Of a stretch of 28,858 bases of DNA, positions 829 through 13,317 are shown one piece after another. This stretch comes from a virus. The translations under genes were made by a program, and so were the position numbers. The notes beneath the pieces were generated by a model. That model saw nothing but the letters and a program-made list of their open reading frames with translations. It had not been told where the DNA came from and made no database searches. Within the stretch, counting starts at the first letter, position 1, and every line of letters begins with the position of its first letter. The stretch is taken from the IMG/VR virus record IMGVR_UViG_3300028920_000752, positions 1 to 28,858 of that record; one strand, given 5' to 3'.

Positions 829-904
829 GAAATCTGCCGCTTATGCTACGTGCATAAAGGCGACGGGTCAGAAGCCGCATCGGCGGAAAAAGAAACGCGC
901 ATGA
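752..904 (+). CDS. Hypothetical 50-residue very basic protein
   Basis: I place the start at ATG 752 because a GGAGG Shine-Dalgarno sequence sits at 740-744, and because the frame upstream of it overlaps the previous gene. The product has about 17 Lys/Arg in 50 residues, ending HRRKKKRA, with a run PRKKGQTKKSA in the middle and two cysteines. Such a charge suggests binding to nucleic acid, but no domain is recognised. Its stop overlaps the terminase start (ATGA at 901-904), pointing to translational coupling. It could be a terminase accessory factor, but there is no direct evidence of that. Confidence 0.6.
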   Translation: MVPDKLMRCVRKVARTITPRKKGQTKKSAAYATCIKATGQKPHRRKKKRA

Positions 905-2700
905 TTCAGATCTACAAATTCCCGTATCGGGGTGAGTGGCGCGTCGCGACCGAGGCGCGGATCAAGCAACTCGAAGAAGGCAAGGCCGACGACCGCAAGT
1001 CCGCAAAAGAGATACGGGAGATGTGGGATCAGTACCAGAAGAATCGGCTCTCGTTCTTTCTGCCGCATGGACCAAAGCTGAAGGCGATGGTGAAGCAACC
1101 ATCGGGCGTCTTGCGGAACGTCATCCAGCGCGACAAGATACCACATTGCGGTGCGGGAACGACTGGCGCAGAGTTCATTAACAACACTGAGCAGACATTC
1201 ACGATGTTCCTGAAAGTGAGCCAGGGTGGCGGCACTTGTCATGGCATGATCTTCTCGCTGGTGCGTTGCGTGAAATGTGATCCCGACTGGATGTGTTTCA
1301 CAGATCATGGGCTCAAGCACATTCCATACACCGGCCCAAAGGACTGGCTGATAACGGCAGACTCGTGGAACAAGATGCAGCGCATCTGGCGCGAATACCT
1401 GACATTCATTCCGGAGTATGAACTTGAGAAAAGGCATTACGCTATCGCGCACACGTTGCGGCATGGACACATTCAGGAAGCGCCTCCCCTACTCGTTAGT
1501 GGCACAGTGTTTCATTTCTGTTCGTACTCGCAGTGGCACCATAGAGCACTTAGCGGGAAACAGCTCGACGGAGGACAATGGGACGAGCAGATGCCTGAGG
1601 AGATGGCGGACGAATACTTCGAGCGCCTCTCAACGCGCCGCATCGTAGTGGATGGGGAAACGGTGTATCAGCCACAGACATGCGCTACGCTCACAGGCCA
1701 CGTACAGGAGGGCAACCCAGACACGGGTGGCGGGGGCTGGCTCAAGACGAAGATGTACGACGGACGCGACATGAAGGGCACCAGTATCGCCGTCTATCAG
1801 ATGCCGGGCTGGTATGTGCCGGATGAGATCATAGATCGCAAGACAAAGCAAGAGAAGTACGAACGCGGCGTGGTCATTCCGAAGCAGAACAATGACAAGC
1901 ACGCGGAGCGGATAGGCCGTGCACGCTGGTTCGCAGAATGGGAAATGGTTGGCGGCTTGGTCATCGACAGGTGGGACCCCGCCATGCACTGGATTGACCC
2001 ATTCGAGATCCCGAAGGACTGGACACTGTATCGCGCTATCGACTACGGCAAGAATAAGCCTACAGCAGCGCTATGGGCAGCCGTGTCGCCCGACTTCGAT
2101 CTGTTCTTCTATCGCGAGTATTACACGACGAGTCTTAGTGTCGGGGAGAATGCGGCGAACATCGTTGAGGTGTCAGGGAACAAGCGACGTGCCCTAAAGA
2201 CAGACAACGATCCCCGCCTAGGCGAAACGTGGACTACGTTCGAGGAGATCATGTGCGGCGAAGAGTTCTTTGACAGCGTGCTTGACAGCCGCAGCTTCGG
2301 CACGCCATCGGATCGCGGAATGCTCACGATTGGGCAACTCTACAACGACTATGGCTGTTACTGCCGCAAGGCATCTGGCAAGCAGAACCGAACGCCGGAA
2401 GGAGATGGTGCGCTAGATCTCCTGAACAACTGGTTTGAGGTTAATCCGAATCGGCGACACTATGTCACAAAAAAGCCGGGTGCTGCACGCATCTACGTTT
2501 TCAACACGCTGAAACATTTCCGCGACGAGATTGAAACGCTGCAAGAGGGCAAGCGGCTAGACACGCAGCAGGACCACTTGATCTGTTGCGCGAAGTGGAT
2601 CGTTCTACTTGACCCGTCATACATGGGCCACAAGCAGCCACGAGACATCGAGGACAGACGTGTGAGCCGGAGACCGCGTGCACGCTTTACCAATTATTGA
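901..2700 (+). CDS. terL: Terminase large subunit (DNA-packaging ATPase/nuclease)
   Basis: A 599-residue protein with the two-domain layout of large terminases, the motor that pumps phage DNA into the prohead and cuts it. ATPase part: a PHG motif at 55-57, which often precedes the P-loop; two glycine-rich candidates for Walker A, GAGTTG at 84-89 and QGGGTCHG at 108-115; and DEQMPEE at 228-234 as Walker B with catalytic Glu. Nuclease part (RNase H fold): AIDYG with Asp381 after an aromatic strand, then TAALWAAV and an FYREYY strand, a middle acidic pair Asp458/Asp462, and DHLICCAKWI with Asp558, the usual DDH(L)-D-A-x-R-Y position. Neither P-loop candidate has the usual Lys. Start chosen at ATG 901 (ATGA overlap with the gene before) rather than GTG 850. 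No small terminase is recognised next to it. Confidence 0.88.
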   Translation: MIQIYKFPYRGEWRVATEARIKQLEEGKADDRKSAKEIREMWDQYQKNRLSFFLPHGPKLKAMVKQPSGVLRNVIQRDKIPHCGAGTTGAEFINNTEQTFTMFLKVSQGGGTCHGMIFSLVRCVKCDPDWMCFTDHGLKHIPYTGPKDWLITADSWNKMQRIWREYLTFIPEYELEKRHYAIAHTLRHGHIQEAPPLLVSGTVFHFCSYSQWHHRALSGKQLDGGQWDEQMPEEMADEYFERLSTRRIVVDGETVYQPQTCATLTGHVQEGNPDTGGGGWLKTKMYDGRDMKGTSIAVYQMPGWYVPDEIIDRKTKQEKYERGVVIPKQNNDKHAERIGRARWFAEWEMVGGLVIDRWDPAMHWIDPFEIPKDWTLYRAIDYGKNKPTAALWAAVSPDFDLFFYREYYTTSLSVGENAANIVEVSGNKRRALKTDNDPRLGETWTTFEEIMCGEEFFDSVLDSRSFGTPSDRGMLTIGQLYNDYGCYCRKASGKQNRTPEGDGALDLLNNWFEVNPNRRHYVTKKPGAARIYVFNTLKHFRDEIETLQEGKRLDTQQDHLICCAKWIVLLDPSYMGHKQPRDIEDRRVSRRPRARFTNY

Positions 2701-2973: not shown

Positions 2974-3120
2974 ATGAAGATATTCACAATCAACCTAGCT
3001 TTACTCGCGACGATCCCACTGACAATCTGGCTGGCGGCAACGAACCGTATCGGCTGGTGGACGGTCGTTGCGATTTGGGCATCGCATGTGTCGGCGATGA
3101 TCTCGTTTCGGAAACGATAA
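2974..3120 (+). CDS. Small two-helix membrane protein
   Basis: A 48-residue protein starting at ATG 2974 after a strong GGGAGGC ribosome site. It has two hydrophobic stretches: residues about 5-21 (TINLALLATIPLTIWLA) and about 27-44 (WWTVVAIWASHVSAMIS), joined by a short ATNRIG turn and ended by FRKR. This is a helical hairpin in the inner membrane with a basic cytoplasmic end. Size and topology would suit a small holin or an antiholin-like protein, but no lysin is nearby, so I leave the function open. The overlapping frame that starts at 2733 looks like a shadow. Confidence 0.6.
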   Translation: MKIFTINLALLATIPLTIWLAATNRIGWWTVVAIWASHVSAMISFRKR

Positions 3121-3129
3121 CGCAGAAAT

Positions 3130-3235
3130 GAGGGGCAAGTGAAACCCAACACCAAACACCATCGGGCGCGTGCGGAGGCTTCGGCATGGGAAGTCGCGCC
3201 CTGCTCTGCTAATGGCGCGGGATCACTTGTCCCTC
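3130..3235 (+). repeat. Imperfect inverted repeat, attC-like boundary site (site 0)
   Basis: Outer arms GAGGGGCAAGTGA (3130-3142) and TCACTTGTCCCTC (3223-3235) pair with one mismatch. Inner arms GGGCGCG and CGCGCCC pair further in. The right part (CTAATG..CGC..CACTTGTCCC, then TCCATT) resembles the right end of the cassette array at 7278-7310. It does not have the AAC/GTT ends of the true attC-like sites, so its role as the ancestral insertion point is an inference. Confidence 0.4.
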
Positions 3236-3267
3236 TCCATTTCCTTGTTCGCCTCTTGAAGCTATAA
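3139..3267 (+). CDS. Possible small ORF (42 aa)
   Basis: A GTG start at 3139 follows AGGGGCAA and the frame runs to TAA at 3265-3267. The product begins MKPNTKHHRARAEASAWEV and ends PLHFLVRLLKL. Nothing about the composition is typical of a known family, and the whole frame lies inside an imperfect inverted repeat (3130-3235), so it may well be non-coding. Listed only because this 156-base gap holds no better gene. Confidence 0.2.
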   Translation: MKPNTKHHRARAEASAWEVAPCSANGAGSLVPLHFLVRLLKL

Positions 3268-3276
3268 GGAGGAGTG

Positions 3277-3459
3277 ATGAGTAAAGTGCTTAGTCTCGTG
3301 CTTGTGATATGCCTGTTAAGTCTGAGCGGTTGCGCCTGGATTATGCCGAATGTCGATAAAGCCAGAACAGAGCGCAGGCAAGAAGAATTACTTGAACGGC
3401 AATGTGAAGCTATTGAGCGTATCGCCGACGTGTTGGAACAAGAGGCGGAACAACCATGA
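3277..3459 (+). CDS. Small lipoprotein
   Basis: ATG 3277 is preceded by AAGGAGG; the GTG at 3274 is too close to that site. The 60-residue product has a lipoprotein signal: MSK, a hydrophobic run VLSLVLVICLLSL and the lipobox L-S-G-C with Cys19 as the lipidated residue. The mature part (about 42 residues) is a charged amphipathic helix (RTERRQEELLERQCEAIERIADVLEQEAEQ) likely to form a coiled coil. A short outer-membrane lipoprotein with a helical tail could be an o-spanin-type lysis protein or a superinfection-exclusion lipoprotein. No i-spanin is visible, so I do not choose. Its TGA overlaps the sulfotransferase start (ATGA). Confidence 0.75.
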   Translation: MSKVLSLVLVICLLSLSGCAWIMPNVDKARTERRQEELLERQCEAIERIADVLEQEAEQP

Positions 3460-4088
3460 TAGTCATCATCGTAGGATCATTCGGGTCAGGCACGACATTT
3501 CTGAGCGAAAGACTTCACGAGTCCGGCATTACAATGTGGACCCACAATCTGATGGCCCACGAAGACGCAGACATCTACGGGATGAACCAGGTCGAGTGCA
3601 TTTACAGTACGGCGAAACGGAATCATAATCCGATGACATACGATCCAAGCGAGTACTTTGTGAAACGGCTCACGGAGTATCGGGAATACCGCGAGACCTG
3701 TAGCGACGGAGACTGGGGATGCAAGGAGCCGCAGATCATATGGTTCACCAAAGCCTATGCCCAGGTCTTTCCAGACGCGAAGTACATCTGCTGCATTCGG
3801 AATCCGCTATCCTGCATAGAGAGTCAACGGAAGAAGAACAAGTATCTCCAAGGCGATGGCCTGGCATTGAAGACATGGACATACTATCTCCTGAACTTCT
3901 TGACGTATGGGGCGGAAGCGGAGCTAGCGGCACACTTCTTCAATTACGATGCCGACATGGAGCTAGAACAAGCGGCATTATCGAAGTTCCTTGGGCGCGA
4001 GATAGACCTGGTGAGCGCGTTTAAGTGGAAGCAAGCGCGTCGCCTTGCAATAGACCCAATACGGTACGGGCAAGAGACGGTCTACTGA
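3456..4088 (+). CDS. Sulfotransferase-like protein
   Basis: A 210-residue protein with the two PAPS-binding signatures of the sulfotransferase fold. The 5'-phosphosulfate loop is at the N-terminus: after strand MIVIIV comes GSFGSGTTFLSERL, like the G-x-x-x-S-G-T-T loop. The 3'-phosphate-binding motif is YICCIRNPLSCIESQRK at about residues 109-125 (R-x-P plus a Ser seven residues after the Arg), preceded by the usual F-P-D-A-K-Y strand. Members transfer sulfate from PAPS to sugars, peptides or small molecules. It starts in an ATGA overlap with the lipoprotein gene and ends one base inside the first attC-like site. Possible roles are host-surface or virion glycan modification, perhaps together with the glycosyltransferase at the window start; that link is inference. 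Confidence 0.8.
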   Translation: MIVIIVGSFGSGTTFLSERLHESGITMWTHNLMAHEDADIYGMNQVECIYSTAKRNHNPMTYDPSEYFVKRLTEYREYRETCSDGDWGCKEPQIIWFTKAYAQVFPDAKYICCIRNPLSCIESQRKKNKYLQGDGLALKTWTYYLLNFLTYGAEAELAAHFFNYDADMELEQAALSKFLGREIDLVSAFKWKQARRLAIDPIRYGQETVY

Positions 4089-4279
4089 ACGCCAGGATAA
4101 AGAAAGTCACAAAGCGCATGGTATTGCCAACGACAAGGATGAGGCTCAACATGAAGCGTGACAGCGGGAAAGGTGGCAAGCGTCAAGACCAGCCCTTGCG
4201 GCAGGACACCGACAGCGCTCGTGAAAGCGGCGCTTCATGTTGTAGCCCTCAATCCGCACACTCCAATTCATTGTTATGC
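4087..4279 (+). repeat. attC-like site A (first of array)
   Basis: The core hairpin pairs GAGGCTCAACATGAAGCG (4141-4158) with CGCTTCATGTTGTAGCCCTC (4231-4250), with two bulged bases. The right end R' is GTTATGC (4273-4279). The left end is less sure: GAACGCC at 4087, at the sulfotransferase stop, has the usual form, as does GCCAACG near 4127. The outer arms differ in length, so this site may be enlarged or decayed. About 210 bases here (4089-4300) hold no gene I can support apart from this repeat. Confidence 0.55.
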
Positions 4280-4300
4280 GCCGACAACAGGAGAGAGACG

Positions 4301-4492
4301 ATGCCAGAAGTATATACGTGTGAGTGCGGGAATCAGACATGGACGCTCTACAGCAGCGACGACATCGTGTGCGCGCTATGCGAGACACGATACCGCCTGC
4401 GCCTGTACGCCGGAGAGTTCAATGTGCGCCGTGAGGACTACGACAACACACCGCAGGGAACGCAAGGCATGACCAATGCCGCAGGCGCATAA
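4301..4492 (+). CDS. Small zinc-ribbon-like protein (cassette gene)
   Basis: Start at ATG 4301 with GGAGAGAG just upstream; the frame is open further left but that part lies in attC-like site A and looks non-coding. The 63-residue product has CECG at residues 7-10 and CALC about 20 residues later, an arrangement like a zinc ribbon, with a WTLYSSDDIV strand between the two pairs. The C-terminal half (FNVRREDYDNTPQGTQG) is polar. The TAA stop is inside the R'' end of the next site, as is common for integron cassettes. Function unknown; DNA, RNA or protein binding through zinc is the family-level expectation. Confidence 0.65.
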   Translation: MPEVYTCECGNQTWTLYSSDDIVCALCETRYRLRLYAGEFNVRREDYDNTPQGTQGMTNAAGA

Positions 4493-4621
4493 CGCCAGCC
4501 TTGAGCCGCTGGCGAGAAAAAATCACCAATGAGCGATGACTTTCATGTAAAGACCTTAGAAAACAATGGAGTGTTGGAGCGGGCGGCTTCTCGCCAGTCG
4601 CGCTCGAAGGCTTTGTTGGCT
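4487..4621 (+). repeat. attC-like site B (long loop)
   Basis: R'' GCATAAC at 4487-4493 and R' GTTGGCT at 4615-4621. The left stem AGCCTTGAGCCGCTGGCGAG (4497-4516) pairs with 4590-4612, whose reverse complement is CTCGCCAG-type sequence with three extra bases that would bulge. The loop contains the ATG of the next gene at 4529. GGCGCATAAC at the left end is the exact reverse complement of GTTATGCGCC at the start of the same cassette (10 bases). Confidence 0.75.
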
Positions 4622-4807
4622 GCTGTCGACGCCCTCGCGGATGCGTGCGACAAACACGCCAAGGCCGCAGCGTGCAGCGTTGACCATTCCGACTGGTGCG
4701 AGACGATGGAAGCGGTAGAATCGGCGGCACGGGCGTATCGCGAACTGCGTGCCGCCAACGCCGGGCTTCACCGGACTTCGGAAGCCGAGCACAACGAGAA
4801 AGGATAG
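4529..4807 (+). CDS. Hypothetical helical protein (cassette gene)
   Basis: A 92-residue product starting inside the loop of site B and stopping in the loop of site C. The first 30 residues (to about SRSKALL) come from the right arm of site B, the central part (AAVDALADACDKHAKAAACSVDHSDWCETMEAVESAARAYRELR) from the cassette body, and the tail after ANAGLH from the left arm of site C. The centre is strongly alpha-helical, Ala-rich, with three cysteines. No Shine-Dalgarno sequence is evident before ATG 4529, so an internal start such as the TTG codon at the recombination joint is possible. No family recognised. Confidence 0.55.
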   Translation: MSDDFHVKTLENNGVLERAASRQSRSKALLAAVDALADACDKHAKAAACSVDHSDWCETMEAVESAARAYRELRAANAGLHRTSEAEHNEKG

Positions 4808-4876
4808 GATTATGGATAACGTAGAGACAAAAGAAAACGCGGCTTCCGAAGGTGCGAGTGGAAGCCCTTGTTCGAC
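4753..4876 (+). repeat. attC-like site C (long loop)
   Basis: R'' CGCCAAC at 4753-4759, R' GTTCGAC at 4870-4876. Left stem GGGCTTCACCGGACTTCGGA (starting 4763) pairs with 4841-4867 (CTTCCGAAGG...GAAGCCC) with three bulged bases. GCCAAC is the reverse complement of GTTGGC at the start of the same cassette. The loop holds the stop of one gene (4805-4807) and the ATG of the next (4812). Confidence 0.75.
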
Positions 4877-5090
4877 GATTGAGTTCACTGACGGTTGCCC
4901 TGGCAGGGGTTGCCAGATTTGCGGCGATCCTGTCGAGACGCGCTTCGGAGGCTGCTTCCAGTGCGCTGATGCTGAGGCGGTCATAGCGACGGGCGCAGAC
5001 ATGCACGACAAGAAGGTGGCCGAAACGCCGAGGGAGAAACTGCGGTACGTTCTGAAGGCGTATGGCATTCCGTGCAGGCTGTTCAGATGA
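4812..5090 (+). CDS. Cys-rich small protein (cassette gene)
   Basis: ATG 4812 lies in the loop of site C with AAAGGAT upstream, 4 bases after the previous stop. The 92-residue product has a leader encoded by the site's right arm (to about GSPCSTIEF), then CPGRGCQICGDPVETRFGGCFQCADAE, with six cysteines in a C-x4-C-x2-C ... C-x2-C layout that suggests one or two zinc sites, and a helical C-terminus (EKLRYVLKAYGIPCRLF). The last 100 bases pass into the degenerate site D. Function unknown. Confidence 0.6.
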   Translation: MDNVETKENAASEGASGSPCSTIEFTDGCPGRGCQICGDPVETRFGGCFQCADAEAVIATGADMHDKKVAETPREKLRYVLKAYGIPCRLFR

Positions 5091-5190
5091 TGTATGGCGT
5101 GAAGGATTACTACGAGCAAGGCATTTGCTCTCCAGCCTGTAATGAGAAAGTTGTCCGCCCTTCATCGCCGCCTCCATCCGCTTGTTCGGT
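5019..5190 (+). repeat. Degenerate attC-like site D
   Basis: The right end R' GTTCGGT (5184-5190) is secure because GCACCGAAC at the end of the same downstream cassette (5348-5356) is its reverse complement. The left half is poor. GGCGTGAAGG near 5096-5105 can pair with CCTTCATCGCC at 5159-5169 with one bulge, and an inner GAGCAA/TTGCTC hairpin is present. GCCGAAAC near 5019 may be an R'' with one extra A. The site may have suffered indels. Confidence 0.4.
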
Positions 5191-5366
5191 GCGATGCTTT
5201 GGGTTGCGAAAAAAGGGCGAGGAAATGCCTCGGTCGCCATTGTTTCCGACATGGGCAGATGCATCGGTTGCAAGATTGGTTCATCCAGAAATACATGCTG
5301 ACGATTTTGAGGTCGTCAGGATTACGATTGAAAATCAAGATACAGATGCACCGAACGTTGACGTGA
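5142..5366 (+). CDS. HNH-type zinc-binding small protein, possibly frameshifted (cassette gene)
   Basis: This frame encodes RCDALGCEKRARKCLGRHCF followed by RHG, close to the C-x4-C-x(5-7)-C-x2-3-H-x-x-R-x(2-3)-G pattern seen at the start of many phage HNH-type proteins. The leader LHPLVRC crosses the R' of site D with GTT read as a Val codon, just as PIVRC does in the gene at 6264. ATG 5142 has no clear ribosome site. After about residue 45 the frame becomes less protein-like, while the frame one base back (next entry) becomes more so. Either two overlapping genes or one gene with a -1 shift near 5270-5280 is possible. Confidence 0.4.
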   Translation: MRKLSALHRRLHPLVRCDALGCEKRARKCLGRHCFRHGQMHRLQDWFIQKYMLTILRSSGLRLKIKIQMHRTLT

Positions 5367-5392
5367 GCATGTCCGAGAAGGGGGCACGATGA
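5225..5392 (+). CDS. Hypothetical small protein overlapping the HNH-type ORF
   Basis: ATG 5225 has a good GGCGAGGAA site directly upstream. The 55-residue product contains HPEIHADDFEVVRITIENQD, a convincing beta/helix segment, and ends APNVDVSMSEKGAR, where AAC of the R'' end is read in the same phase as in six other cassette genes. The same frame is open back to ATG 5087, which overlaps the stop of the gene before; a longer product with two extra Cys pairs is possible. Alternatively it is the displaced C-terminal half of the protein starting at 5142. Confidence 0.45.
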   Translation: MPRSPLFPTWADASVARLVHPEIHADDFEVVRITIENQDTDAPNVDVSMSEKGAR

Positions 5393-5497
5393 ACCGAACG
5401 CGAGGAAACATTGGCGACACCTCAGAACCATCCGCAGGGCGTGGGCGAGCGGAGAAGCCGCCCCCTTCTCGGAATATGCTCGACGTGCTCGTTGGGC
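5350..5497 (+). repeat. attC-like site E (long loop)
   Basis: R'' ACCGAAC at 5350-5356 and R' GTTGGGC at 5491-5497, which fits the integron consensus GTTRRRY exactly. Left stem GACGTGAGCATGTCCGAGAA (then GGGGGC) pairs with 5459-5487 nearly perfectly; the right arm has an extra base in each of two places, giving the bulges expected of attC. The 70-base loop contains ATG 5389 of the next gene and the stop of the last. Confidence 0.8.
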
Positions 5498-5724
5498 AAC
5501 CCTGCCGCTCGGTGTGTGTCGGCGAGGATGGGATTGTCGGCGTGCATGTCCTGCGTGGGACAAAACTGCTATTCCACGGCTGCTGTGATTGCGGCCTCCG
5601 CCATCGGATCGAGTTCGAGTGGCCGGAAGACGGCGTAGTGATGAAGTGGACAAGGTTGCCGAACGCCGAGCATCATGCGCGCTGTCAAGCGTCGCCTGAA
5701 TGCTCTTGTTCTGTGGAGGATTGA
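5389..5724 (+). CDS. Cys-rich small protein (cassette gene)
   Basis: A 111-residue product starting at ATG 5389 in the loop of site E. Residues 1-34 (to about VLVGQ) are encoded by the site's right arm and are Arg/Pro/Ser-rich. The body CRSVCVGEDGIVGVHVLRGTK reads as beta strands, followed by HGCCDCGLRHRIEFEW and GVVMKWTRLPNAEHHARC, with late cysteines CSC. A CxxC-type pair plus His residues suggests a zinc-stabilised beta domain. The gene runs through the whole short site F and stops 10 bases past its R' end, so its tail is also site-encoded. No family recognised. Confidence 0.6.
   Translation: MNRTRGNIGDTSEPSAGRGRAEKPPPSRNMLDVLVGQPCRSVCVGEDGIVGVHVLRGTKLLFHGCCDCGLRHRIEFEWPEDGVVMKWTRLPNAEHHARCQASPECSCSVED
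5658..5714 (+). repeat. attC-like site F (short, about 57 bases)
   Basis: R'' GCCGAAC (5658-5664), R' GTTCTGT (5708-5714). Stem GAGCATCATGCGC (5668-5680) pairs with GCGTCGCCTGAATGCTC (5689-5705) with bulges, leaving a loop of about 8 bases. GTTGCCGAAC at the left differs by one base from the reverse complement of GTTGGGCAAC at the start of its cassette. Confidence 0.7.
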
Positions 5725-5727
5725 CCG

Positions 5728-5910
5728 ATGATTATTGAATGGGCGAAGGACTGCAAGTGCAACACGACGGCCATGCGACCGGGATTCACGTTTCAGCAAC
5801 GCGAAGGCAAGAACAACACAATCACCGTGACGGTGACGTTTCACCCAGGACCGGTGTGCGACGGGTGCGGCAAGCCGTGGAAGCGGGTGCGCGAGGGCAC
5901 GGGTGAGTAG
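5728..5910 (+). CDS. Small protein with two Cys pairs (cassette gene)
   Basis: A 60-residue product; GGAGG sits upstream of ATG 5728, and the start is after the recombination point, so this is a self-contained cassette gene. DCKCNT at residues 8-13 and CDGCGKPW at about 44-51 give a C-x-C ... C-x2-C pair likely to bind one zinc, separated by a beta hairpin (NNTITVTVTFHPG). It ends WKRVREGTGE just before the R'' of site G. Layout resembles small phage zinc-ribbon proteins. Function unknown. Confidence 0.65.
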   Translation: MIIEWAKDCKCNTTAMRPGFTFQQREGKNNTITVTVTFHPGPVCDGCGKPWKRVREGTGE

Positions 5911-5913
5911 TAC

Positions 5914-5975
5914 ACAGAACGCTCCGCGTCAGCATTTGGCGCGAAGCGACAATATGCTGGACGCGATTGTTCGGC
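5914..5975 (+). repeat. attC-like site G (short, 62 bases)
   Basis: R'' ACAGAAC (5914-5920), R' GTTCGGC (5969-5975). Stem CGCGTCAGCAT (5925-5935) pairs with ATGCTGGACGCG (5954-5965) with one extra G bulged on the right arm, as in classical attC sites. ACAGAAC is the exact reverse complement of GTTCTGT at the start of its own cassette. Confidence 0.8.
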
Positions 5976-5991
5976 AAGATGGAGGTAGCAA

Positions 5992-6267
5992 ATGACGTGC
6001 GAATGCAAGCGGGCCCGGAAAACAATCCGAGAGGAGTTCCCGTATGACATTGGGGACATCGTGAATCAGAACGGACACGACGAATTTCCGCTGGTAGTAA
6101 CCGGGTACATCACGGATCAACAACGTCTGTTTGTGCGAGACCCCAGCGGGGCCTTGTCAAAAGGCGACGAGTTTGAAATGCACTTTTGTGAGGTCACGGA
6201 CCACTGGCGCAGGGTGAAGCCGAACGCTACGGGTGAGCGGCCCGAAACCCGCTCGGAGGACGTATGA
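5992..6267 (+). CDS. Hypothetical protein (cassette gene)
   Basis: A 91-residue product with GGAGGT before ATG 5992, after the recombination point. It begins MTCECKRARKTI (C-x-C), then IGDIVNQNGHDEFPLVVTGYITDQQRLFVRDPSGAL, which reads as a small beta-barrel like domain, and DEFEMHFCEVTDHWRRV. The tail KPNATGERPETRSEDV is encoded by the left arm of site H. Its TGA overlaps the next start (ATGA at 6264). Possibly a small nucleic-acid or protein-binding barrel; no family assigned. Confidence 0.65.
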   Translation: MTCECKRARKTIREEFPYDIGDIVNQNGHDEFPLVVTGYITDQQRLFVRDPSGALSKGDEFEMHFCEVTDHWRRVKPNATGERPETRSEDV

Positions 6268-6321
6268 CTACAGAGGCAACGCAGGTGCGGGTTTCGGGTA
6301 CGCTCGACCCGATTGTTCGGT
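6219..6321 (+). repeat. attC-like site H (long loop)
   Basis: R'' GCCGAAC (6219-6225), R' GTTCGGT (6315-6321). The left stem CGGGTGAGCGGCCCGAAACC (from 6230, continuing CGC) pairs with 6287-6310 (GCGGGTTTCGGGTACGCTCG) with a few bulged bases. The loop carries the stop of the previous gene and ATG 6264. GCCGAAC is the reverse complement of GTTCGGC at the start of the cassette. This is one of the clearest hairpins of the array. Confidence 0.85.
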
Positions 6322-6497
6322 GTTCGAATTGCGTGTGGGTTCACAAGTTCAATCCACGCCAAGACGAAATTGACCGAGGGTTGACGATCGGCTGCAAGAA
6401 GCCGGGATGGGAGGGTTATTCGCACGACGATGATCCTGCCTGCGGCGGCGTGTTCTTTACACCGAACGCTGGAGGTGACGCGCATGGAAACCGCTGA
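6264..6497 (+). CDS. Cys-rich small protein (cassette gene)
   Basis: A 77-residue product starting in the loop of site H, with CGGAGGA upstream. The leader TTEATQVRVSGTLDPIVR comes from the right arm of site H. The body has CSNCVWVHKF (C-x2-C), then IGCKKPGWEGY and DPACGGVFFTP, so four cysteines in a C-x2-C ... C ... C layout, plausible for a zinc site. The tail TPNAGGDAHGNR is encoded by the left arm of site I. The next gene starts 14 bases before its stop. No family recognised. Confidence 0.6.
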   Translation: MTTEATQVRVSGTLDPIVRCSNCVWVHKFNPRQDEIDRGLTIGCKKPGWEGYSHDDDPACGGVFFTPNAGGDAHGNR

Positions 6498-6564
6498 ACA
6501 ACGCAACGAATCAACCGAGGAGGTCAGCGCGGTTTCCATGTCGCCGTCCACCTCTTTGTTGGCA
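6461..6564 (+). repeat. attC-like site I (long loop)
   Basis: R'' ACCGAAC (6461-6467), R' GTTGGCA (6558-6564). Left stem GAGGTGACGCGCATGGAAAC (6472-6491, then CGCTGA) pairs with 6523-6554 with four bulged bases. ACACCGAAC is the reverse complement of GTTCGGTGT at the cassette start. The start codon ATG 6484 lies within the left arm itself, so the hairpin in mRNA could mask it. Confidence 0.8.
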
Positions 6565-6798
6565 TGTCCATTTTGCGGAGAGTCAGAAGTTGAAGAACGC
6601 ATGGTGACAGTACACATTGCTGGCGAAAAACCTGAGCGCTACAGCGTGGAATCCGGCGCGGCGCGGTGCGTATACTGCTGGAACTGTGGGGCGAACGCAC
6701 TTGTGCAATGGTGGAGCCGTCGTCATGCCAACGTCGAGCCTCACGGTCGGCGCGATAGCGACGTAGCGTGCAGGCGGCTTGTTGGAGCGGATCAATGA
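6484..6798 (+). CDS. Lar-like restriction-alleviation-type protein (cassette gene)
   Basis: ATG 6484 has GGAGGT upstream. The 104-residue product has a Ser/Glu-rich leader of about 26 residues encoded by site I, then LACPFCGESEVEERMVTV, a central helix/strand region, and CVYCWNCGANALVQWWSRR. The CPFCG start, a second C-x2-C about 40 residues on and the closing W-x-x-R match the layout of Lar-type proteins, which in phages and prophages counter type I restriction. Confirmed function cannot be read from sequence. The gene continues through site J and stops past its R' end; its TGA overlaps the next ATG. Confidence 0.65.
   Translation: METAEQRNESTEEVSAVSMSPSTSLLACPFCGESEVEERMVTVHIAGEKPERYSVESGAARCVYCWNCGANALVQWWSRRHANVEPHGRRDSDVACRRLVGADQ
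6726..6787 (+). repeat. attC-like site J (short, 62 bases)
   Basis: R'' TGCCAAC (6726-6732), R' GTTGGAG (6781-6787). Short stem CCTCACG (6739-6745) with CGTGCAGG (6767-6774) and one bulged base. CATGCCAAC at 6724-6732 is the exact 9-base reverse complement of GTTGGCATG at the start of the same cassette. The stem is weaker than in the other sites but the ends are convincing. Confidence 0.65.
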
Positions 6799-7037
6799 AA
6801 AGCCGATGGCAACTCGACACGGACTATTTGGCAGACTGTAGCCTGTTTTCCACTGAGCCGGTCATGCGTGAGTGCCCGTACTGCCGTGAGACGTTCAAGC
6901 CGCGATGGAACCCGCCGACGCCCAACCAGACGTTCGGACACTGGCAGCGGTTCTGCTCGCGGACTTGCTGGAAGCTGTGGAATGAGGAGCATCGCTCCAA
7001 CGCCCGGAGTCAGGCGCTCCGGGGAAAGGACGATTGA
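6795..7037 (+). CDS. Small zinc-finger-like protein (cassette gene)
   Basis: An 80-residue product; ATG 6795 overlaps the previous stop and has TTGGAGCGG upstream, part of which is the R' of site J. It contains MRECPYCRETFKPR, then FGHWQRFCSRTCWKLWNEE: C-x2-C about 35 residues before C-x3-C, the layout of treble-clef or MYM-like zinc fingers that often bind nucleic acid. The tail RSNARSQALRGKDD is encoded by the left arm of site K. Probably a phage zinc-finger protein of unknown target. Confidence 0.65.
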   Translation: MKSRWQLDTDYLADCSLFSTEPVMRECPYCRETFKPRWNPPTPNQTFGHWQRFCSRTCWKLWNEEHRSNARSQALRGKDD

Positions 7038-7087
7038 TATGAAGAAAAAGCGCGGAACCCGGAGTCGCCTGCACTCCGTTGTTCTCA
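6995..7087 (+). repeat. attC-like site K (long loop)
   Basis: R'' CTCCAAC (6995-7001), R' GTTCTCA (7081-7087). Left stem from GCCCGGAGTCAGGCGCTCCG (7002-7021) pairs with CGGAGTCGCCTGCACTCCG (7060-7078), with a bulged base in each of two positions. CGCTCCAAC is the 9-base reverse complement of GTTGGAGCG at the start of its cassette. The loop contains ATG 7039. Confidence 0.85.
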
Positions 7088-7281
7088 AGCCCTGCCCGTT
7101 TTGCGGTTGTGACATGGGCGTGCTTGAGTTGGGCGGCGGGTTTGAGTGGTATGGACGGCACAAGTCAATGTGCCCCCTGGAGTGTAACCCGTCTGGATCA
7201 TACGGGCGCGTTGGCGACATGGCTGACGCATGGAACATGAGGCTTGAGAACAGCGCAATAAGTGGAAAATCGCGCTACTAA
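7039..7281 (+). CDS. Lar-like restriction-alleviation-type protein (cassette gene)
   Basis: An 80-residue product with GGAAAGGA upstream of ATG 7039. A basic leader MKKKRGTRSRLHSVV from the right arm of site K is joined to LKPCPFCGCDMGVLELGGG, then WYGRHKSMCPLEC and GDMADAWNMRLEN. LKPCPFCG at the start, a second cysteine pair and the A-D-A-W-N-x-R near the end match the Lar/restriction-alleviation family closely; these proteins reduce cleavage by host type I restriction enzymes. It is the second such gene in the array (the first at 6484). It ends inside site L, the last of the array. Confidence 0.75.
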   Translation: MKKKRGTRSRLHSVVLKPCPFCGCDMGVLELGGGFEWYGRHKSMCPLECNPSGSYGRVGDMADAWNMRLENSAISGKSRY

Positions 7282-7298
7282 TGCGCCACTTGTCCCCT
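7245..7298 (+). repeat. attC-like site L (last of array, right end degenerate)
   Basis: R'' TGAGAAC (7245-7251) with GGCTTGAGAAC as the exact 11-base reverse complement of GTTCTCAAGCC at the cassette start. Stem GCGCAATAAGT (7253-7263) pairs with ACTAATGCGC (7277-7286) with a bulge and a mismatch. The right end reads CACTTGTCCCC instead of a GTT box. It is followed by several TGTCC repeats (7292-7316). Confidence 0.65.
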
Positions 7299-7361: not shown

Positions 7362-7772
7362 ATGGAAGAGAACCAGTCTCTATTTGCCATCCCGCCTATC
7401 AATGACGGCGATGAGCCTCTCCTCGCTTTTCTGCCCGGCCATTGGCTTCTAGTCCACCACTGCGCCGCCCCGCTTGACGTGCATTTCAAGGACAATGCTG
7501 GCCGCGATGTCACGTTGTATAAGCCAGACAAGAACATCGACGACACGCTCGAATGCGAAGTGATTGCGGTTGGCGCTCGCTGTGGAAAGCCACGCAGGAT
7601 GCCGAAGAAAGACCGCAAGAAGCGCGGCTATCCGGCTGCGCTCAATAACCCCCTGAAGAAAGGTGACCGCGTGCTCGTCCCAGAGATAGACGAGGACACG
7701 AAGCGAACGCCATGGGACAAAGACGAATACTATGTTGACGAATCAGCCGTGATTGCGATCTGCCATGAGTGA
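7362..7772 (+). CDS. GroES-like co-chaperonin
   Basis: A 136-residue protein with the GroES (Cpn10) layout: a first strand HWLLVHHCAAP, a loop ending DVTLYKPDKN (equivalent to the mobile loop with its I-V-L contact to GroEL), ECEVIAVGARCG (the conserved G/E-V-x-A-V-G), then LKKGDRVLVPEIDE (the v-k-x-G-D-x-V-l motif) and EYYVDESAVIAI (the y-x-x-v-x-e-x-d-I-x-A closing motif). Cellular GroES is about 97 residues; the extra length is partly a basic insert RRMPKKDRKKRGYPAALNNP. Phage co-chaperonins such as T4 gp31 adapt host GroEL to fold capsid protein, and this gene sits just before portal and capsid genes. ATG 7362 chosen (GTG 7344 lies within the promoter); no Shine-Dalgarno sequence. Confidence 0.8.
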   Translation: MEENQSLFAIPPINDGDEPLLAFLPGHWLLVHHCAAPLDVHFKDNAGRDVTLYKPDKNIDDTLECEVIAVGARCGKPRRMPKKDRKKRGYPAALNNPLKKGDRVLVPEIDEDTKRTPWDKDEYYVDESAVIAICHE

Positions 7773-10014
7773 AGAACAAGTCATCGAGCTTACAGAAGCT
7801 ATGTCTGCCGTCGTGGATGTGCCGGTCGAGATGGACGAGCCGAAGCAAGAGGCGAAGCCATACTACCAAGATCCGCCGGAGAACATCGCGGCCCGAAAAG
7901 GCAAGAAGGCCCAGGAGACCGTAAACAAGTTCCGCAAGCGTTCTGCGTCATGGCTTAGAAAGTTCAAGAACCGCAACGCGAGAAAAGATTTTGACGAGAA
8001 GCTGGACGAATGGGATGCCATGTGGCGAGCGTCTCTCACGGCCACCTATCGGCGCAATGACCAACTCAACACCAACGAGGATGGCGACACGGAGAAGAAG
8101 ACAAGATCGAACGTCGCGTCCACGGCCTTCCATCAGCGTGTGGCAGTCCGCACCAGCAACCGCTCGATGATAATGTTCCAGGAAGGCAAGATGCCGTTCC
8201 GCGAGGAGCCATTGCCGGGAACAGACGAGTACACCGAGAACGAGGGACAGCGTGTCGCCGACTATCACAATCTGCTGAATGAGCTAACATGGTCGATGGA
8301 CGGCGTGCCTGCGAAGCTGAAGGACGCCCTGCTATTCTGCGGCAAGAACAGCCTGCAAGTGATGGCGATAGAGTGGGATCGTCGCAAGCGCATGATCCCT
8401 GACCGCGTAGCGACGGATTACGATGAGAACGGTATTCCGACCGCCTACGACTTCAAGGACAAGGAAGAGATCATCGCAGATCATCCCACGTTGCGCTTGG
8501 TGGACATCAAAGACTTCTATTTTGACAACCTGGTTGACGACGAAGAACGGTGGGTATGCACCATTGAGAAGTTCAACGCGATCATGCCTGAGCTGATGGA
8601 GCAGGCCCGGATAAAGAACGGCTATACGAATCTCGACAAACTGAAGACCAAGCATCTCTATGTCAACGAGGGAGACAACGAGACATTGCGGCATCGCGCC
8701 GAAAACGCGGATGAGGAAAGCGACGAGGACGCGACCGGGGCCTTCAAGATGAAACGGGTATTCCTGCGTGCGCCGATCAATGATGACGGCGTATGGGATG
8801 AGAAGAAAACGCCCGCAACGGAATGGTGGGAAGGGATATTCGGCGGGGAATTGGGCGAGACCGACGCGGTGTGTGTCATGCTGCGCAAGCGTAGAGACTT
8901 GGCCGGGATCTCGATGTACAAGCTCATGCACGAGATGCGGGACGACAAGGGTGCCTTGCACATGGGATCGGCAGAGCTTATCGCCTCACTCTATTGGGAG
9001 CATTACACGACCAAGAATCAGCTATACGATATGCGGGATAGGCTCGTCAACGTGCCTTACTTGGCTGAGGCCGGATCTATTCTATCGCAGGGCCGACAAA
9101 TGGAAGGTAATATCACGACGTACATCAAGCCTGGACGCGAAGTCAAACCGGCTCCGATCTTAGACGCAACGTCGCCGATTCTCCAAAGCCTCTCCGATAT
9201 CGGACGCGAGATGGACGATGCGCTGCACACGACACCGCCCGTCATGGGCATGGCGAGAGCGCGTGTATCGGCTACTGGCGAGAAACAGGCTCTAGAGCAA
9301 GGCTTGAAGCCGATCACGGAGGATACACGCTACATGGCGGATCAGGTATTCCCGTGGATGGCGAGTATGTACAGGCGGCTATGGCGCTTTTATGGCGATC
9401 CGAAGCGTATTGTGACGGTGACACGCCAAGGCGAGAATGTCGAGATACGACCTGCGGAATTGTATGGGCCGCTACGCACTCGCGTTACCTGCGTTGACCA
9501 CTTTGAATCGGACGTGACACGGCGTGCAGAGCAAGACAAGTTCTTGCAGGTGATCTTCCCGTTTATGGCGAAGGACATCGGGCGAAAACAGCGTCTTATG
9601 ATTTATCGTCAACTACTTGAAGACCGAAAGATCGTTGACAATATCCCTGCGGTGCTTCCATTCGATGGCGACTATGATGCAGAGCATCACGCCGACGAAG
9701 AGAACGCAATGATGCTTTATCAGGGCACGATGGAGTATCCGAGTCAGGGTGAAGATAACGATGTGCATCTTTCGCGGCATCATGCCGCCGAGGCGCTCTA
9801 TGGGCAAATGCCCAAAGAGGATCAGAACAACGAAAAGTTATCAATGCTCAAGTTGCACATACAGCTCACGGAACAGATGAAGGAACAGGCTATGGCCGCC
9901 ACTCCTGCGCAATCGGCGCTCCAGCCAGAAACTGCGGCTCAGACACCGGGCGAAGAGAGTGGCGATCAACTTGCGGCAGGATACGGAGATCTCGGACAGG
10001 CAGGGCCAGCATAA
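7765..10014 (+). CDS. Portal protein
   Basis: A 749-residue acidic protein starting at ATG 7765, overlapping the co-chaperonin stop by 8 bases. I call it portal from position (after terminase, before scaffold and capsid), size (that of podovirus-type portals) and segments: a basic N-terminal helix with RKDFDEKLDEWDAMWRASLTATY, a wing-like alpha/beta region with LVDIKDFYFDNL, and a helical stretch ILQSLSDIGREMDDALHTTPPVMG followed by ARVSATGEKQALEQGLKP, like the portal stem/clip region. The C-terminal 100 residues are Gln/Glu/Ala-rich and probably disordered or coiled. A portal dodecamer forms the DNA entry vertex of the head. Confidence 0.7.
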   Translation: MSEEQVIELTEAMSAVVDVPVEMDEPKQEAKPYYQDPPENIAARKGKKAQETVNKFRKRSASWLRKFKNRNARKDFDEKLDEWDAMWRASLTATYRRNDQLNTNEDGDTEKKTRSNVASTAFHQRVAVRTSNRSMIMFQEGKMPFREEPLPGTDEYTENEGQRVADYHNLLNELTWSMDGVPAKLKDALLFCGKNSLQVMAIEWDRRKRMIPDRVATDYDENGIPTAYDFKDKEEIIADHPTLRLVDIKDFYFDNLVDDEERWVCTIEKFNAIMPELMEQARIKNGYTNLDKLKTKHLYVNEGDNETLRHRAENADEESDEDATGAFKMKRVFLRAPINDDGVWDEKKTPATEWWEGIFGGELGETDAVCVMLRKRRDLAGISMYKLMHEMRDDKGALHMGSAELIASLYWEHYTTKNQLYDMRDRLVNVPYLAEAGSILSQGRQMEGNITTYIKPGREVKPAPILDATSPILQSLSDIGREMDDALHTTPPVMGMARARVSATGEKQALEQGLKPITEDTRYMADQVFPWMASMYRRLWRFYGDPKRIVTVTRQGENVEIRPAELYGPLRTRVTCVDHFESDVTRRAEQDKFLQVIFPFMAKDIGRKQRLMIYRQLLEDRKIVDNIPAVLPFDGDYDAEHHADEENAMMLYQGTMEYPSQGEDNDVHLSRHHAAEALYGQMPKEDQNNEKLSMLKLHIQLTEQMKEQAMAATPAQSALQPETAAQTPGEESGDQLAAGYGDLGQAGPA

Positions 10015-12354: not shown

Positions 12355-13317
12355 ATGCCTACTACTGCATCTGCAAGCGCCTTGACTAACTGGTATGCCC
12401 AGCCTGGCGCACTCGAACGACGCGTATACACCGACCTACTGGACAAGGAAATGGATGCCGTAGAGATTACGGCAGACCGTGTAAAGATCCAGTTGGACGA
12501 TCTGTATACGACCCGTGGCGACAAGAAAGACAGCACCATCAAGATCGCAGACGTGAGCAGCATCGCTGATCTGCCTGTCAAGAGTGAAGATATTGATGAT
12601 CTGCCTGTCAGTCACGTCGCTCCCGGATGGGATATCACGCTGACCCCTGTCAACTACCGGCAGTCCCTCAAAGTTACAGAGGACATGCAGGAAATGGACC
12701 GGTTCGGACGCGTGATGCAAATGATGGCTGGTCTGATGAAAGGTGGCTTGCGCCAGAAGCAGTACGCACTCGCGGACCTCTTCAACAACGCGTTTGCCAC
12801 TTACACGGGTGGAGATGGAATGTATCTCCTCGATACAGGACATCCGTATCGAGATCCCTCAGCAGGAACGTGGGATAACCTGGATACTGGTGCACTGACT
12901 CATGGGAGACTGTCTACGGCTCGGGTGAACTTCCGCAAGAGCACCAATGATAAGGGTCATCGCGACCCGATCAAGCTCATGCGGCTACTTGTTCCGCCTG
13001 ACCTGGAGCAGAAGGCTATCGAGATCCGCAAAGCGGAGAAGATGCCAGAGAACGCTCTGAATCAGCCTAACTGGTTGCAGAACACGTTCGACATTCAGGT
13101 GTGCGACTGGTTCACCGGCACGAACGACTGGTTCTGCTGGGGCGACCATACCGAACCTGCGGAGGCTGGACTGTATTACGGCGAGAGATATCCTCTCTCT
13201 GTGCGTCCACTTCCGGCTGGCGAATTGACCGCTGGGATTATCTGGGGCCGCTATCTGAAGGTGGCCTTTGATTACTCCTTCAACGTGGTCAAGAACCTGC
13301 GTGGTTCAACGGGTTAA
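12355..13317 (+). CDS. Major capsid protein (Mu gpT-like, HK97 fold)
   Basis: A 320-residue protein with one of the best ribosome sites in the window (AAGGAGGAATAAACA). It matches the gpT-like capsid layout: an N-terminal helix (LERRVYTDLLDKEM), strands LTPVNYRQSLKVTEDMQEMD, a spine-helix region (GGLRQKQYALADLFNNAFATYTG), then DGMYLLDTGHPYRD with the typical D-G-x-x-L-x-x-x-H-P, LSTARVNFRKSTNDKGH, RLLVPPDLEQKAIEI and the C-terminal strand FDIQVCDWFTGTNDWFCWGD. Many copies form the icosahedral shell. No long N-terminal delta domain is present, in keeping with a separate scaffold gene. A strong hairpin follows the stop codon. Confidence 0.8.
   Translation: MPTTASASALTNWYAQPGALERRVYTDLLDKEMDAVEITADRVKIQLDDLYTTRGDKKDSTIKIADVSSIADLPVKSEDIDDLPVSHVAPGWDITLTPVNYRQSLKVTEDMQEMDRFGRVMQMMAGLMKGGLRQKQYALADLFNNAFATYTGGDGMYLLDTGHPYRDPSAGTWDNLDTGALTHGRLSTARVNFRKSTNDKGHRDPIKLMRLLVPPDLEQKAIEIRKAEKMPENALNQPNWLQNTFDIQVCDWFTGTNDWFCWGDHTEPAEAGLYYGERYPLSVRPLPAGELTAGIIWGRYLKVAFDYSFNVVKNLRGSTG

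Follow-up and report, generated by a model that had tools for sequence, protein, structure and literature searches.

The DNA analysed here (the window) is a virus record of 28,858 nucleotides (nt) from IMG/VR, IMGVR_UViG_3300028920_000752, taken at its full length; the contig is a fragment. At positions 4129–7083, within 3 kb, we found eleven sites of the attC type, the hairpins of integron cassettes, nine of them clear and two degenerate (4129–4275 and 5024–5186), with small genes on the plus strand between them. The array sits in the phage head-gene region, with a terminase gene upstream and genes for a presumed portal protein and the major head protein downstream. A preliminary description, made from the letters of the window, had proposed an array of AAC...GTT hairpins separating small plus-strand cassette genes at this place in a phage genome; the array, the genes and their location are all borne out by what follows.

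The window hairpins have AAC and GTT ends, bulged bases and variable loops. Their R'' (RYYYAAC) and R' (GTTRRRY) cores terminate imperfect hairpins with extra-helical bases on one arm, unpaired spacers and a variable terminal structure, as attC sites do, and the clear sites are 49–140 nt long. We scanned the whole window blind with a simple folding score for the outer arms: six sites had outer-arm energies of −20.8 to −27.0 kcal/mol, whereas 24 dinucleotide-shuffled versions of the full sequence gave nothing better than −17.0 kcal/mol. We also searched with a home-made covariance model, trained on attC sites of four other phage contigs and a Vibrio integron and containing no window sequence. 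This gave six matches (E of 4e-4 to 2.3e-14), every one of them on the minus strand and within the array, and no further match in the window at E ≤ 5, which upholds the attC assignment by a check of the kind that the preliminary description had proposed. The score of attC 8 is not fully independent, this site being homologous to two training sequences; the other five matches are free of this. A scan of the window against Rfam returned no attC family and no relevant match. The sites are as follows.

4129–4275, minus strand: attC 1, degenerate, with a long right spacer, outermost in the array (fold)
4491–4617, minus strand: attC 2, long loop containing the start codon of the next gene at 4529 (−20.9 kcal/mol)
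4757–4872, minus strand: attC 3, long loop containing the ATG at 4812 (−24.2 kcal/mol; covariance model E=1e-6, minus strand)
5024–5186, minus strand: attC 4, degenerate (fold)
5354–5493, minus strand: attC 5, long loop; the ATG at 5389 overlaps the stop codon of the upstream gene (ATGA) (−27.0 kcal/mol)
5662–5710, minus strand: attC 6, short (covariance model E=3.9e-9, minus strand)
5918–5971, minus strand: attC 7, short (covariance model E=7.4e-12, minus strand)
6223–6317, minus strand: attC 8, with the ATG at 6264 in its loop (covariance model E=2.3e-14, minus strand)
6465–6560, minus strand: attC 9, with the ATG at 6484 inside (−23.2 kcal/mol)
6730–6783, minus strand: attC 10, short, read through by the upstream open reading frame (ORF) (covariance model E=4.3e-4, minus strand)
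6999–7083, minus strand: attC 11, with the ATG at 7039 in its loop (covariance model E=6.4e-10, minus strand)
7241–7298, minus strand: possible terminal half-site, right arm degenerate (direct reading of the sequence)

Known attC sites carry their extra-helical bases on the R'' arm and have spacers of the form AACAA...GCGTT. All clear sites of the window are mirrored, with the extra bases on the right arm of the plus strand (attC 2 has three, every one of them there) and mostly AACGC...TTGTT spacers. The mirrored bulges and spacers place the attC sites on the minus strand and the genes on the plus strand; hence the canonical attC strand runs against the genes, and the plus-strand reading of the sites in the preliminary description has to be given up. 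The attC of aadA7 is in the forward state, in gene direction, as are most sites of a Vibrio phage integron. Gene and attC are inverted relative to one another in all eleven window segments, and an attC at the 3' end of its gene, the usual though not strictly defining arrangement of a typical array, occurs in 0 of the 11.

The genes between the sites are all on the plus strand. They are supported by two matches to the Lar family, one scoring over the curated cut-off and the other under it, and by sequence resembling a ribosome site ahead of several start codons.

4301–4492, plus strand: cassette gene, small zinc-ribbon-like protein (CxC...CxxC) (ORF; no Pfam match above cut-off)
4529–4807, plus strand: cassette gene, unknown product, start within attC 2 (ORF)
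4812–5090, plus strand: cassette gene, Cys-rich product, start within attC 3, 4 nt past the previous stop (ORF)
5087–5392, plus strand: cassette gene, unknown product, ATGA overlap with the preceding gene (ORF)
5389–5724, plus strand: cassette gene, unknown product, starting within attC 5 and running through attC 6 (ORF)
5728–5910, plus strand: cassette gene, Cys-rich product (ORF)
5992–6267, plus strand: cassette gene, with a C-terminal tail NATGERPETRSEDV from attC 8 (ORF)
6264–6497, plus strand: cassette gene, zinc-ribbon-like product, with the N-terminus TQVRVSGTLDPIV from attC 8 (ORF)
6484–6798, plus strand: cassette gene, Lar-type restriction-alleviation protein (PF14354, 29.6 bits, above the cut-off of 28.6)
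6795–7037, plus strand: cassette gene, zinc-finger-like product, ATGA overlap with the preceding gene (ORF)
7039–7281, plus strand: cassette gene, Lar-like product (PF14354, 22.5 bits, below the cut-off of 28.6)

Of the eight window attC sites that are 85 nt or longer, seven contain the next gene's start codon; at the three short sites this codon follows the GTT by 12–21 nt, and at the degenerate attC 1 by 26 nt. Stop and start codons are spaced by −14 to +4 nt in 8 of 10 gene pairs, four of which have the 4-nt ATGA overlap. Upstream genes cross the cassette junction, so that one protein ends in the tail NATGERPETRSE encoded by attC 8 and the head of the next comes from the same site; near-identical tails or heads are present in two related contigs described below (G002 and G003). 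The arrangement suggests translational coupling. Many of the proteins encoded at 4301–7281 are short, rich in CxxC pairs and zinc-ribbon-like, with the Lar matches as the only family matches, and two of the cassette proteins gave no match when searched against phage records.

Searches with DNA patterns and with one cassette protein brought the number of phage contigs with such sites to seven: the window, G001 (40,280 bp), G002 (57,882 bp), G003 (27,938 bp), G004 (29,840 bp), G010 (32,441 bp) and G011 (40,610 bp). Phage genes were confirmed in G001, G002, G003 and G004. Two extra DNA patterns led to 22 new contigs with no attC at the match position, which serve as a negative control. Except for the pair G001/G011, and for G002 and G003, which are partly related, the seven contigs share almost only the attC sites, some similarity of cassette genes and a gene of the DNA polymerase beta/PolX type. 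In three different phages (L025:11259–11957, L051:3391–3915 and G004:16912–17652) this PolX-like gene is found close to the attC array, and the C-terminus of the G004 protein is encoded by an attC. A lone attC-like match to the covariance model (E=1e-8) lies at G002:24797–24857, distant from the G002 array.

At 49 bacterial attC sites, the longest adjacent ORF had the usual orientation 44 times and was inverted 5 times. By contrast, in the phages of this group the inverted ORF was the longer one at 27 of 34 sites, counting all 11 window segments (Fisher p=1.8e-10, which is indicative, since sites in one array are not fully independent). At the other seven phage sites several of the longer ORFs may be shadow ORFs; at one of them in G001 a Dam domain match falls on the inverted strand.

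Window attC types recur in three unrelated phages, and the shared types span phages of 45–68% GC. Compared with attC 8, G002 has a sequence of 83% identity over 115 nt and G003 one of 86% over 101 nt, with different neighbouring genes. Likewise, attC 9 and the first codons of its Lar gene are 91% identical over 112 nt to a sequence in G010, a phage contig of 45% GC. Both attC types therefore recur with other neighbours in other phages. The identity to G010 begins at the AAC core and passes the GTT into the downstream gene, indicating that the attC belongs with the downstream gene. We conclude that the cassette boundary on the plus strand is RYYYAA/C (the slash marking the cut) and that each attC travels with the gene that follows it. 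The GTT on the plus strand had been considered as the boundary and was rejected from the orientation of bulges and spacers and from the comparison of junctions.

An integron cassette enters as a circle, such that the bases after GTT complement the far end of the cassette's own segment, before AAC, and not the partner box within the hairpin. Across 21 segments from four contigs, R-box complementarity averaged 4.2 of 5 positions between the ends of the same segment, as compared with 1.8 of 5 within the hairpin. When segment starts and ends were re-paired at random, the observed sum was never reached in 20,000 trials (p=5e-5). Individual window segments follow the same rule: the ATGCGCC after the GTT of attC 1 complements the GGCGCAT that precedes AAC at attC 2 (a run of 7), and the CGGTGC after the GTT of attC 4 pairs with the GCACCG before AAC at attC 5 (a run of 6). 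For the last window segment, which is outside the 21, CTCAAGCC directly after the GTT at 7081 (attC 11) complements, at 8 of 8 positions by eye, GGCTTGAG before the AAC near 7248. This complementarity between the ends of gene segments is the mark of inserted cassette circles.

The clearest evidence for mobility comes from G001 and G011, a second lineage that carries arrays of this kind. The two contigs come from different metagenome records and have backbones that are mostly 94–99.9% identical, with some more diverged stretches; their arrays differ at the same locus. The order of cassettes is A, B, C, D, E, F, G, H, I in G001, and G, D, X, I, F', H, A followed by a further segment in G011. Cassettes A, D, G and H are 99.5–100% identical between the two, cassette I is 92% identical, and F' matches a portion of F at 81%. 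All resolvable junctions fall at G/TT, the complement of the plus-strand boundary, and no left-right adjacency is shared, so that the cassettes behave as mobile units bounded by G/TT. The ends of each contig map close together in the other, suggesting that both genomes are probably nearly complete; IMG/VR lists both as linear. The preliminary description had called for related phages with shifted boundaries at the GTT positions: such shifts occur, exactly there, in this other lineage, and a reshuffled relative of the window phage itself was not among our finds.

The cassettes of G001 include genes for a Dcm-type C5-cytosine methylase (PF00145), for a Lar protein (PF14354) and for a 6-pyruvoyl tetrahydropterin synthase of the QueD type (PF01242), and a Dam-type methylase gene (PF05869) lies at the edge of its array. 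Beside the QueD-type gene is a cassette gene for a 231-amino-acid (aa) protein with no Pfam match (L025:14658–15350), which could act in the same DNA-modification pathway. The families suggest that the cargo would serve against restriction and so benefit the phage.

None of the seven contigs encodes an integron integrase (IntI) above the cut-off, and the window contig (28.9 kb) has no match to TIGR02249 or PF00589, in agreement with the integrase-free array proposed before. Eleven attC sites within 3 kb and no intI nearby are the marks of a CALIN (cluster of attC sites lacking integron integrases; at least two close attC sites with no intI nearby). The contig has no intI to make up a complete integron, which consists of intI and attI in addition, and no systematic search for attI was made. 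G001 encodes a divergent phage-type tyrosine recombinase of 424 aa (PF00589, 21.6 bits; phrog_1) and G002 encodes two phage-type tyrosine recombinases, one of them about 1 kb from the array. The description of the window phage as lytic-type is accordingly unproven, the contig being a fragment and these relatives encoding phage integrases. The same enzymes raise the possibility that the cassettes are moved by a phage recombinase other than IntI, for example by a phage integrase that accepts attC hairpins. We consider this unlikely: none of the enzymes is IntI-like above the curated cut-off, G003, G004 and the window have no tyrosine recombinase within their contig sequences, G001 and G011 share cassettes while their integrase regions are strongly different, and the junctions are exactly as made by IntI. 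The most likely recombinase is a host IntI acting in trans.

The usual reading of a CALIN would be that a piece of a bacterial chromosomal integron was caught passively by the phage and has been inactive since. Attachment of bacterial arrays to phages is documented by Qi et al. (PMC9892861), and attC sites that match our model occur often in genomes of bacteria (72 of 274). By contrast, genes have the opposite orientation in 44 of the 49 bacterial cassettes, the same attC types occur in unrelated phages across the range of GC content given above, and a scan of 84,980 species genomes with the core of attC 8, one attC type, gave two matches, neither of them a complete attC. The different cassette orders of near-identical phages weaken this reading in their own right, and we regard it as quite improbable. 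Homologous recombination between repeats, or misassembly, is a very improbable source of the differences in order: chimeric contigs can arise in metagenomes, but G001 and G011 come from different records, the sequence shared at junctions amounts to a few nt (GTT and its neighbours), which is too short, and all resolved junctions are at G/TT. That the array is an ordinary phage operon with RNA hairpins between small genes, as terminators or as elements of translation control, is refuted, since hairpins overlapping start and stop codons could affect translation but would have no reason for conserved AAC/GTT cores, one-sided bulges, the circle signature, covariance matches and exchange of blocks at G/TT.

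With these alternatives weighed against the attC anatomy, the inversion, the cassette-circle signature, the G/TT reshuffling in the second lineage and the lack of an IntI above cut-off, we think it very probable that the window carries an integrase-free phage cassette array, a CALIN, whose inverted cassettes are exchanged between phages and reshuffled. Several points weigh against this interpretation. The window is a fragment, such that an integrase could lie beyond its ends, and our searches led to neither a host nor a host IntI. Searches of IMG/VR with the presumed portal protein, the terminase and the major head protein returned no close relatives of the window phage, and a search of INPHARED returned distant terminases only; for this reason the reshuffling is demonstrated in G001/G011 and not in the window phage. 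The longest ORF is in the canonical orientation at 7 of the 34 phage sites; for at least one of these (G001 Dam) the domain match shows the inverted orientation. No family is known for most cassette genes, and both the translational coupling and the benefit of the cargo are read from sequence.

A mechanism can be proposed for such an array. The attC stands at the 5' end of each cassette gene, pointing against it, and cutting and joining at G/TT of the R' box (RYYYAA/C on the plus strand of the window) would move the attC together with the downstream gene. Host IntI would recombine the folded single strand, for which the plus strand of the window is the predicted recombinogenic strand. The cassette genes are probably read within a plus-strand phage operon. 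The loop of the longer attC sites contains the start codon, and the upstream gene crosses the junction and stops within the attC, often in an ATGA overlap, and translation of the two would be coupled; promoterless inverted cassettes could in this way carry start signals in their own attC and be transcribed with the phage operon. Cassettes are swapped among unrelated phages and shuffled inside a lineage, several of them carrying putative anti-restriction or DNA-modification genes. More broadly, the chances seem to us evenly balanced that phages hold a cassette pool of their own, apart from the bacterial one, in which cassettes are inverted, use the attC as translation start, pass between unrelated phages of different hosts and are shuffled by host IntI during infection, varying anti-restriction and accessory genes as well as the C-terminal tails of their neighbours.

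Bacteria trade resistance genes by means of such cassettes. Integrons are seen as platforms of bacteria, and CALINs in phages as pieces captured now and then. The arrays described here show cassette exchange inside a phage lineage, and phages appear to collect and reshuffle integron cassette genes. The inverted orientation would be silent behind an integron's own promoter, yet it fits a phage operon. These features suggest that accessory and anti-restriction genes are traded in a cassette economy adapted to phages, and the borrowing of a host integron integrase by phages becomes a testable question. Bacterial chromosomal (sedentary) and mobile integrons have the same attC anatomy, cassette circles and G/TT junctions; the present arrays differ from them in that neither IntI nor, without a systematic search, attI was found, genes are reversed relative to attC and the arrays are in phage genomes.

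Phage CALINs as such are known. The preliminary description knew of none, but Qi et al. (2023; PMC9892861) describe 17 among 10,705 phage genomes, some of them in virulent phages, and report that IntI1 used five of six phage attC sites tested. As described there, virulent and temperate phages (e.g. Tetrasphaera phage TJE1) have intI-free attC arrays with methyltransferase cassettes, as here. The TJE1 sites run with their genes, whereas those of the window are inverted, more numerous, translated through and hold start codons. Our covariance model found two sites of the TJE1 CALIN, on the strand of the TJE1 genes, and handled long loops worse with its filters off. The hairpin scanner, at the thresholds used, found one convincing TJE1 site and none in P12002L and PH101, indicating that it misses weaker attC sites and that the covariance model is the better tool for TJE1. 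Reshuffling between near-identical phages is seen here and was not found in the accessible text of Qi et al. What is new is that the cassettes are inverted, apparently translationally coupled and reshuffled, several of them being anti-restriction cassettes. Stop/start coupling that aids promoterless cassette genes is also known from integrons, with ORF-11/ORF-18 at attI1 and in fused cassettes (PMC8876359); there it arises from attI1 or from lost attC sites, whereas here the start signal lies in the intact attC loop of the same cassette. Phages are also known to have Lar-type anti-restriction genes and orphan methyltransferases; the genes found here belong to those families but are carried as exchangeable cassettes. 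A literature search, outside which most subscription papers and preprints fell, turned up no description of cassettes that are inverted and have start codons in attC loops, nor of reshuffling between near-identical phages.

A contig of a Rubrivivax metagenome-assembled genome has half an attC arm, GGCGAACGCTGCGGGTGAGCGGCC, directly past a stop codon and without a matching right arm (L029:3753–3772). The same genome encodes a full-length IntI (461 bits) on a different contig.

The genes around the array in the window, and one outlying candidate site, are the following.

850–2700, plus strand: terminase large subunit (PHROG matches; tblastn to phage terminases)
3119–3249, minus strand: candidate outlying attC, AACGC...TTGTT with three extra bases in the right arm (−15.6 kcal/mol; resembles an attC of phage G002)
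3456–4088, plus strand: sulfotransferase-family gene bordering the array (PF13469, E=3.4e-9)
7753–10014, plus strand: presumed portal protein (from position and size alone)
12355–13317, plus strand: major head protein (PF10124 and phrog_371)

Family searches with the product of the presumed portal gene gave no match. The stop codon TGA of the sulfotransferase-family gene, between the terminase gene and the array, continues into AACGCC, which resembles an R'' box. The array may include a further site at 3119–3249, upstream of the sulfotransferase gene, in addition to the terminal half-site after 7241; the covariance model gave no match at 3119–3249. After the GTT of this candidate, CGCCTCTTG is the reverse complement, with one inserted base, of CAAGAGGCG just before GAAC (~3440–3450). 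Given these matching ends of the segment at 3247–3452, the lipoprotein-like gene at 3274–3459 looks like a former cassette.

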